Shown here: positions 3,831-44,120 of the stretch, piece by piece | Numbering within the stretch: position 1 is the stretch's first letter | How the letters are laid out: each line of letters begins with the position of its first letter | Assembly: GCA_024636755.1 (NCBI GenBank) | Contig: JAGXGL010000014.1 | Location: forward strand, 1-44,120 | Direction: 5' to 3' | Length of the DNA: 44,120 nucleotides | Source: Guyparkeria sp. | GTDB taxonomy: Bacteria; Pseudomonadota; Gammaproteobacteria; Halothiobacillales; Halothiobacillaceae | Made by a program: the position numbers and the translations under genes | Notes under the pieces: generated by a model | What the model was told of the DNA's origin: nothing | The model's input: the letters and a program-made list of their open reading frames with translations, nothing else | The model's database searches: none

Positions 3831-7725
<3,895 letters not shown>

Positions 7726-35492: not shown

Positions 35493-35638
35493 AGGGAAGG
35501 CCTGCACGAATGCAATACCGTTCTGTGCGCCTCGAGACGGGGTGATGCAAGGCAACCGTCCGTCGCGCAAGGCTGCTTACCTTTCCAAGGACGGCAAGGC
35601 CACGGTTGCCCGGCTCGAGCTGCGCCCTACGGGGCTTG
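35493..35638 (-). repeat. Dispersed palindromic element, left-half copy
   Basis: In the 340-bp gap between rpmB and the SLC13-type gene this stretch aligns with the left half of the element at 42459-42727. Shared blocks include CTGCACGAAT near the end, CTTTCCAAGGACG at 35581-35593 and GCGCCCTACGGGGCTTG at 35622-35638. The inner inverted repeat is kept: CTCGAG at 35531-35536 and 35614-35619. In the complete copy the same arms are CTTGAG and CTCAAG, so one base pair has changed on both sides. The right half and second terminal repeat are missing. Strand is arbitrary. Confidence 0.75.
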
Positions 35639-41139: not shown

Positions 41140-42396
41140 ATGAACAACTCATCCCGATTTTCCCGTGATGCGCTTGCCTTGCTCGATGCCGAGCGCCGCC
41201 GCTTTCTGCGCACGGCGTTCGGCACTGGGGTGGCGGCCTTCGGTCTTCCCCTGGCCGGGCCGGCGCTGGCCGGTCGGGCCGTCAATGTCTCCCGTGTCGA
41301 GGCGGGGCGCCACGACGGCTTTACCCGCTATGTCTTCGCCATCTCCGATCCGGTCGATTTCGACACCCTGTTGCTGGACAACCCGGCGCGCGCGGTCATC
41401 GACATCCGTTCGACGCGGTTGAAGGATGTCTCCCTGCCGTCGACACCGAATTCGCCGGTGGTCAAGGGGTTGCGTGTCGGCGTGCGCAACGGCCATGACC
41501 TGCGCCTGGTGTTCGACCTCAAGAAGCGGGCGCGCCCGCAGATCATCATCCTGCCGCCCACCGGCGGTGGCTCCTATCGGCTGGTGATCGACCTGCCCCA
41601 CGGAGGTGGTGCGGATACCGTGATTGCGGAACGTCCCGACGTCCCGCAACAGGAATCCGCGCTCCGATCCGGTTCGGGCGCGTTCCGCGACCTCGTGGTG
41701 GCGATCGACCCCGGCCACGGGGGCAAGGACCCGGGCGCCATCGGTCGTCGTGGCACACGCGAGAAAGACATCGTGCTCAATATCGGCCTGCAGCTGCGCG
41801 ACCTGATTGCGGCGACACCCGGTTTGCGGCCGGTCATGACCCGTGAGGACGACCGGTTCATACCGTTGCGCCAACGCACCGAGATCGCGCGACGCTACGA
41901 GGCGGATCTGTTCATCTCGGTACACGCCGATGCCTTCCGGCTTGCCTCGGCGAAGGGCGCGTCGGTCTACTGTTTGAGCCAGAACGGCGCCAGCTCCGAG
42001 GCCGCCCGCTGGCTGGCGGCCAAGGAAAACAGCGCCGATTTCGTCGGTGGCGCCTCGCTCTCCGGTCACGACGAAGACGTCGCCTCGGTGCTGCTCGATC
42101 TGGCCCAGACCAAGACGCTGGAATCGAGCCTCGACTTCGGCGACCGCGTGCTTGACCGCATCGGCGGTATCGCCAAGTTGCACAAGCACGATGTGCAACA
42201 GGCGGGTTTTGCGGTGCTCAAGTCGCCGGACATCCCCTCGATCCTGGTGGAGAGCGCCTTCATCAGTAATCCGCAAGAAGAGCAACGGCTGCGCTCTTCG
42301 AGCTATCAGCGTCAGATTGCCCAGTCGATCCTTGCGGGTGTGACGAGTTACTACACGGCGCACGCCCCGCAGGGCACCCGCTACGCCATGCTCTGA
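41140..42396 (+). CDS. amiC: N-acetylmuramoyl-L-alanine amidase with AMIN domain
   Basis: 418 residues. A twin-arginine leader (RRRFLRTAF, from residue 19) suggests Tat export, as for E. coli AmiC. An AMIN domain (about 47-150, DGFTRYVFAISDPVDFDT) targets it to the septum. The catalytic domain (about 187-410) shows AIDPGHGGKDPGAIG, SVHADAF and LVESAFISNPQEE, giving the zinc ligands His, Glu and His and the late catalytic Glu. It cleaves the peptide stem from murein during cell separation. A DxASVLLDL regulatory-helix region lies near 315. It follows tsaE after 229 bp, a gap with an AT-rich tract but no clear promoter. AmiB is the alternative name; the Tat leader favours AmiC. Confidence 0.92.
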   Translation: MNNSSRFSRDALALLDAERRRFLRTAFGTGVAAFGLPLAGPALAGRAVNVSRVEAGRHDGFTRYVFAISDPVDFDTLLLDNPARAVIDIRSTRLKDVSLPSTPNSPVVKGLRVGVRNGHDLRLVFDLKKRARPQIIILPPTGGGSYRLVIDLPHGGGADTVIAERPDVPQQESALRSGSGAFRDLVVAIDPGHGGKDPGAIGRRGTREKDIVLNIGLQLRDLIAATPGLRPVMTREDDRFIPLRQRTEIARRYEADLFISVHADAFRLASAKGASVYCLSQNGASSEAARWLAAKENSADFVGGASLSGHDEDVASVLLDLAQTKTLESSLDFGDRVLDRIGGIAKLHKHDVQQAGFAVLKSPDIPSILVESAFISNPQEEQRLRSSSYQRQIAQSILAGVTSYYTAHAPQGTRYAML

Positions 42397-42458
42397 GTCC
42401 GGTCGCCGCCGTGCTTGTTTCCCGACAGGCCGGCGGGCGACAATCACGGTTTTGCGCA

Positions 42459-42727
42459 AGGAACCTCTGCACGAATTCGATGCCGCTCTGCGCGTCTTGA
42501 GCCGGGCAGGTGCAAGGCGCTCGTCCGCCGTGGAAGAGTCATGCTCTTTCCAAGGACGACAACGCCGCAGATGCCCGGCTCAAGGCGCGCCCTACGGGGC
42601 TTGACGGAGCCGCCCGTGCTCGGCGTTGCGCCGTCTTGACGTGACCACCGGCATGCCGGCGACGACGCGCCTTGATCGCGAACGGCTCGCCAAGCCAGAG
42701 TGCCATCGAATTCGTGCAGAGTTTCCT
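42459..42727 (+). repeat. Complete MITE-like palindromic element upstream of mutL
   Basis: A 269-bp non-coding element bounded by 32-bp terminal inverted repeats (42459-42490 and 42696-42727) that match at 29 of 32 positions and include 18 perfect bases, CTCTGCACGAATTCGATG and its complement. Inside, CTTGAGCCGGGCA (42496-42508) pairs with TGCCCGGCTCAAG (42572-42584), extendable with GCGCG to a 19-bp stem with one G-T pair. A smaller stem around GGAAGAG/CTCTTTCC lies within that, and a CCGGCATGCCGG palindrome lies in the right half. There is no open frame typical of a transposase. No obvious target-site duplication flanks it. Two half copies are elsewhere in the window. Confidence 0.85.
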
Positions 42728-42738
42728 AACGGAGTCCC

Positions 42739-44120
<1,382 letters not shown>

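Follow-up and report, generated by a model that had tools for sequence, protein, structure and literature searches.

The region upstream of the mutL gene in Guyparkeria sp. raises the question of what kind of sequence lies there, how it reached its place between two genes and what keeps its long arms complementary. The stretch of DNA analysed (44,120 nucleotides, hereafter the window) holds at this position a unit flanked by two genes on the + strand. The upstream one was assigned by the gene model (41179..42396), and its product is, we presume, N-acetylmuramoyl-L-alanine amidase-like; the downstream one (42739..44118), which we take to be mutL, is conserved in 11/11 genus genomes. A preliminary description had read the unit as a non-coding, MITE-like element of 269 bp, with dispersed half copies and with internal stems that also resembled a structured RNA.

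Structure of the element

The inverted-repeat search recovered the terminal arms just as they had been described, with 32 nt each at 42459-42490 and 42696-42727, 29/32 positions complementary (91%) and, as read off the arms, 18 contiguous perfect positions. When the boundaries were taken from the register of the family, the outermost A (42459) and T (42727) were found to be letters of the target-site flanks lying outside the element, and the element proper was one full MITE copy of 267 bp (42460-42726). The gene model assigns no gene inside it, in agreement with the earlier view of the unit as non-coding. The left terminal inverted repeat (42460..42490, + strand, beginning GGAACCTCTGCACGAATTCGAT) forms one side of the closing stem of a Y, as judged from the inverted-repeat search and the DNA fold, and the right one (42696..42726, − strand) was placed by the inverted-repeat search. 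Both ends begin with GGAAnnTCTGCACGAAT in the family copies. The long imperfect hairpin that we call arm A (42490..42590, + strand) is defined by an inverted repeat at 42490-42526/42554-42590 (37 nt, 76%), by the fold and by its presence in both subfamilies. Arm B (42597..42695, + strand), a second long imperfect hairpin seen in the RNA and DNA folds, overlaps an inverted repeat at 42580-42607/42648-42675 (28 nt, 71%). These two repeats, both recovered by the inverted-repeat search, bear out the internal stem and smaller palindrome reported earlier.

Copies and size classes

With the element as query, blastn returned 50 rows in its own genome (79% complete); merging the rows that one palindrome gives on opposite strands, and joining split copies, reduced these to about 37 distinct places. 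The lack of further copies that would have refuted the earlier reading was not observed. Element matches were found in 10/11 genus genomes, the exception (G006) being 64% complete. When up to two mismatches were allowed, the end pattern GGGAAnCTCTGCACGAAT occurred 82 times in the complete, single-contig genome G001, while the reversed control gave 0 occurrences. With one mismatch it was present in 14/27 genomes and 2/4 genera of the family; the second genus is Halothiobacillus, relatives from which also carry the element. Searches of plasmids and phages gave no match to the element; a single match in a viral contig (L232) was set aside as a chance match, since it lay inside a reading frame and had no second end.

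We collected 131 end-bounded elements, allowing up to 4 mismatches per end. They span 40-405 bp with a main class of 264-268 bp; the boundary, fold and tree analyses used fetched copies, which are a subset of all copies in the genomes. Inspection of the folds showed that a smaller class of about 161 bp has arm B as its only arm, that a class of about 177 bp has arm A only and that a 339 bp class has extra side hairpins within arm A. Intact ends were present on elements without arm A, without arm B or without both. According to a simple codon-usage gene model, 64/72 full-length copies are intergenic, and the copies beside tandem genes split 26 to 12 between the two orientations. Among the 72 full-length copies examined, the closest pair within one genome was 97.7% identical, and for this reason we see no recent bursts.

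Insertion sites

Identical 4-bp flanks were found in 28/131 end-bounded elements, a set in which a few likely chance pairs (e.g. L069, L091 at 1567) and the nested alternatives L084, L087 and L088 were kept for this count, compared with 0-1 for lengths of 2, 3, 5, 6, 8 and 9 bp. Shuffling of left against right flanks gave a mean of 9.4 identical pairs and a maximum of 19 in 5000 shuffles; with CTAG excluded, 16 identical pairs remained against 2.4 in the shuffled sets. The duplicated 4-mers are usually YTAR/CTAG, and YTAR was present on 56/131 left and 55/131 right flanks. Pairs such as CAAG, TTAT and CTAA are not palindromic, and the repeats are therefore direct duplications. In three tandem element pairs a single 4-bp unit was common to both neighbours, one of them reading TTAT-element-TTAT-element-TTAT. 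The target duplications that the preliminary description had proposed to look for are thus 4 bp long at the level of the family. In the copy of the window the duplication has decayed: in the register given by the 131 elements its flanks are GCAA on the left (42456..42459) and TAAC on the right (42727..42730).

The start of mutL lies 8 bp downstream of the insertion site once one 4-bp flank is removed. In 9/10 relatives (the tenth being G006, in which the site could not be read) a short spacer without the element separates the upstream gene from mutL, and blastn with the flanks also showed the empty site in 8 of the 9. We propose that the mutL-side copy was inserted after its own lineage split from the sampled relatives.

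The half copies noted previously proved to be real. The one at 35493..35638 (+ strand), comprising the left end and arm A, was matched by blastn at 35502-35638 (77%, element positions 9-145). It is a decaying remnant, because it is partly in place in G005 and G001, which retain even less of it than the window does. The other, comprising the distal half and the right end (6115..6238, + strand), was matched at 6150-6236 (75%, positions 172-268), and its orthologous place is empty in G008 and G003. Ordinary decay yields half copies, as the 35.5 kb copy shows. Directly before the 6.1 kb half copy, at 6051-6095, the window has a short array in which a 15-bp unit resembling ATCGATCGGGCCTAG is repeated in tandem; the unit contains CTAG, the favoured target of the element.

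Search for a partner transposase

The earlier suggestion that a transposase with the same ends might be found did not hold within the genus: none was detected in the 11 genus genomes. PF01609 was present in one of the 11 (G008), and this candidate was rejected as an IS4-family transposase with different ends; PF05598 was likewise present in one (G006), as a broken IS5_1-type piece without these ends. In the wider family, PF01609 was present in 9/27 genomes. Among these loci, a complete IS5-family insertion sequence was found in Halothiobacillus (L206); it encodes a 331-aa transposase (NF033581, 298 bits against a cut-off of 140), has the ends GGAAGGTCTGATCAAT and is flanked by TTAA on both sides. 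A second IS5 transposase (L209) has the left end GGAACCTCTGATTGAAT, which also bounds a 147-bp MITE in L095. GGAAGGTCTG is common to the MITE ends and L206, and GGAACCTCTG to the MITE ends and L209. The ends of these Halothiobacillus relatives are thus similar to those of the MITE, not identical, and the similarity of the MITE cores to the two insertion sequences is confined to the ends or is weak.

Our search for a complete transposase with exactly these ends found none, the sole candidate being an element end cut off where a contig stops (L090, in the Halothiobacillus MAG G013). There, 57 bp of the element end precede the break, with the exact 18-bp end followed by a different interior. This end may belong to an autonomous parent and is the best lead to one; it gave no match when searched in plasmids. 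Within this MAG, assigned to Halothiobacillus neapolitanus, both L090 (1500-1557) and L082 (1500-1606) combine the exact end with a non-MITE interior and are cut by the contig end. The genomes that carry the MITE seem to have lost the enzyme that would move it. Its ends and target match those of the IS5 group, and from these features the partner would be a transposase of that group.

Folding and paired changes

The whole element folds into a Y, in which the paired ends form the closing stem and arms A and B the two branches. The fold is very stable both as RNA (z -11.0) and as DNA (z -9.4), and in either case 0/200 dinucleotide shuffles were as stable. The full-length copies fall into two subfamilies of 27 and 44 copies, about 62% identical on alignment, plus L011, which belongs to neither and was left out of the G-U/A-C counts and the trees. 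Both subfamilies have the same Y fold. Ungapped pooling of the two gave a poor consensus structure and was abandoned for a structure-aware pairwise alignment. Of 78 pairs common to both consensus folds, 55 were unchanged, 22 showed a two-sided and 1 a one-sided change, a count that leans to shared pairs since this alignment rewards matching brackets. The trees within subfamilies do not have this leaning. On them, two-sided changes restoring Watson-Crick pairing on one branch numbered 26 and 61, compared with averages of 1.3 and 2.7 (at most 5 and 11) for randomly re-paired columns and 0-3 for slid registers; one-sided events outnumber them (132 and 285). The two ends of a copy also tend to be alike: they agree in 85% of cases at positions 5-6 and in 82% at positions 17-20, where 27% and 20%, respectively, would be expected.

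Selection on RNA would spare G-U over A-C. With G-U pairs excluded from the derivation of the structure and only pairs common to the two strands retained, the one-sided cells were 154 GT and 129 AC, over 71 and 74 pair columns, and an apparent excess of G-U was gone overall once the structure had been derived in this way. Since the one-sided changes carry no overall strand bias, the pairing appears to be kept up at the level of DNA and not of RNA. This argues against reading paired substitutions by themselves as proof of a functional RNA.

Proposed mechanism and alternatives

Inverted ends, dispersal, 4-bp target duplications, an empty orthologous site and an IS5-family relative with similar ends together uphold the MITE-like reading of the preliminary description. 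We propose a non-autonomous MITE of the IS5 group, moved in trans, and consider this mechanism as a whole to be very probable. Points that speak against it are that the search gave no complete transposase with exactly these ends, that the duplication of the window copy has decayed, that the MITE cores give no sign of descent from the known insertion sequences by internal deletion and that the full-length pairs examined within a genome do not go beyond 97.7% identity. In this scheme the ends GGAAnnTCTGCACGAAT would be recognised in trans by a DDE transposase of IS5 type, and integration at YTAR/CTAG-like targets would produce the 4-bp duplication seen in the family. The element inserts or survives mainly between genes and has spread through the Guyparkeria/Halothiobacillus lineage. 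As the transposase is missing from the sampled genus genomes, the present copies are probably fossils or reliant on transient invaders. In single-stranded DNA the full-length palindrome is expected to extrude as hairpins. Template switching in replication has been described as a means by which hairpin arms are created and repaired (PMC8794818). Such switching or hairpin-templated repair, possibly together with foldback selection, may keep the arms complementary, and the smaller size classes could have arisen by loss of whole arms, as by deletion across an extruded hairpin. A bolder formulation, which we put forward as a tentative idea, is that in this MITE lineage the DNA fold itself is what evolves. 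The unit would be a branched cruciform in which each arm is copied from its partner, ends and both hairpins changing in concert, and whole arms would be gained or lost; the structure and the 266 bp length would then persist while sequence identity falls to about 62%, in genomes without a detectable transposase.

Three other explanations were weighed against this proposal. Pairing might be kept mainly by selection, for instance on a foldback end complex that aids transposition, and not by hairpin-templated repair. The paired changes in arms A and B and also in the ends agree with this, as does the agreement of the ends at positions 5-6 within a copy (85% against 27%), but one-sided events on the trees are still common (132 and 285), and the intact ends of elements lacking arm A, arm B or both argue that the arms are non-essential for movement; on balance we think selection as the main cause rather unlikely. 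The element might instead be a structured RNA (sRNA, processing site or terminator) that was spread by transposition and is now retained for the fold of its transcript. Arm A alone shows 91 GT against 53 AC cells, a lean that arm B and the ends do not share, and this observation and the 26 to 12 orientation bias beside tandem genes leave some room for an RNA role, in line with the very stable RNA fold (z -11.0). However, the one-sided changes are strand-neutral overall (GT 154, AC 129 cells), the mutL copy is missing in 9/10 relatives and no Rfam family matches the element at the gathering score, a search at E up to 1 giving sub-threshold matches only, the best to asX3 (19.6 bits against a cut-off of 40). 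The likeness of the stems to a structured RNA, remarked on earlier, is thus not sustained, and we regard retention as RNA as improbable.

A REP/BIME-type palindrome mobilised by a Y1 (RAYT) transposase would fit the presence of Y1_Tnp genes in 6/11 genus genomes. Four genomes (G000, G003, G004 and G007), however, have copies and no detected Y1_Tnp, the ends were absent, with up to 3 mismatches, near all 12 Y1_Tnp loci fetched of 17 matches, and 4-bp target duplications with long matching ends are traits of DDE elements. An origin of this type was rejected on the grounds that the Y1 transposase was not flanked by the repeat in these 12 loci, and we consider it extremely improbable.

Relation to known elements

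The element is of an ordinary kind with an unusually strong foldback, a new family of a known kind. Like insertion sequences of the IS5 subgroup of the IS5 family (NF033581), it has ends beginning GGAAGGTCTG / GGAACCTCTG and a 4-bp duplication of the YTAR type. It differs from them in having no transposase gene, in a length of 40-405 bp instead of about 1.2 kb and in a core unrelated to the two insertion sequences compared. Correia and ERIC elements are likewise high in copy number, intergenic and palindromic, with no evident autonomous partner; they differ from the present element in ends, target and size, and the latter has no Rfam match. YTAR is given as the target and duplication of IS5 in the account consulted (PMC10359306). 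A review of prokaryotic MITEs (PMC10969869) names Correia and ERIC elements alongside them and treats a stable fold and numerous partial copies as the norm. Chunjie and QMITE1/2, from the same review (PMC10969869), are also short, non-coding and intergenic, with inverted ends and a duplicated target, and share with our element a stable fold and many partial copies. As far as these descriptions go, the element is set apart from them by its GC-rich palindrome, which takes up nearly the full length and has two long arms as branches; these arms occur singly or together across the size classes. Tn3-derived TIMEs are also miniature and have inverted ends about 30-40 bp long, and Tn3-type duplications are 5 bp long. 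Here, in contrast, a 5-bp duplication was seen in 1/131 elements and a 4-bp one in 28/131 (for TIMEs as a comparison system, see PMC4133298).

Our literature search gave no account of MITEs from either Guyparkeria or Halothiobacillus, and the main text of the Guyparkeria pangenome paper (PMC9032823) contains no word beginning 'transpos'. As far as that search shows, this abundant MITE family of Halothiobacillaceae has not been described before. Its approximately 70 full-length copies in two diverged subfamilies constitute a natural data set on the upkeep of pairing in long palindromes, in which selection on RNA, selection on a DNA foldback and template switching in replication can be compared.

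Several variants were observed in passing. In G002, elements of 338-346 bp (L161-L163) have an arm A with added GC-rich side hairpins, like new branches of a tree. A 152-bp element with the same ends (L084, L087 and L088, around 1365-1521; Halothiobacillus, G016 and G020) does not fold into one Y but forms a series of four or five separate hairpins, and copies of its end sequence also occur internally. In G012 (L081 and L100) elements with these ends have beside them another repeat, in which runs of C and of G form a near-palindrome around TTTGAAAAAG.
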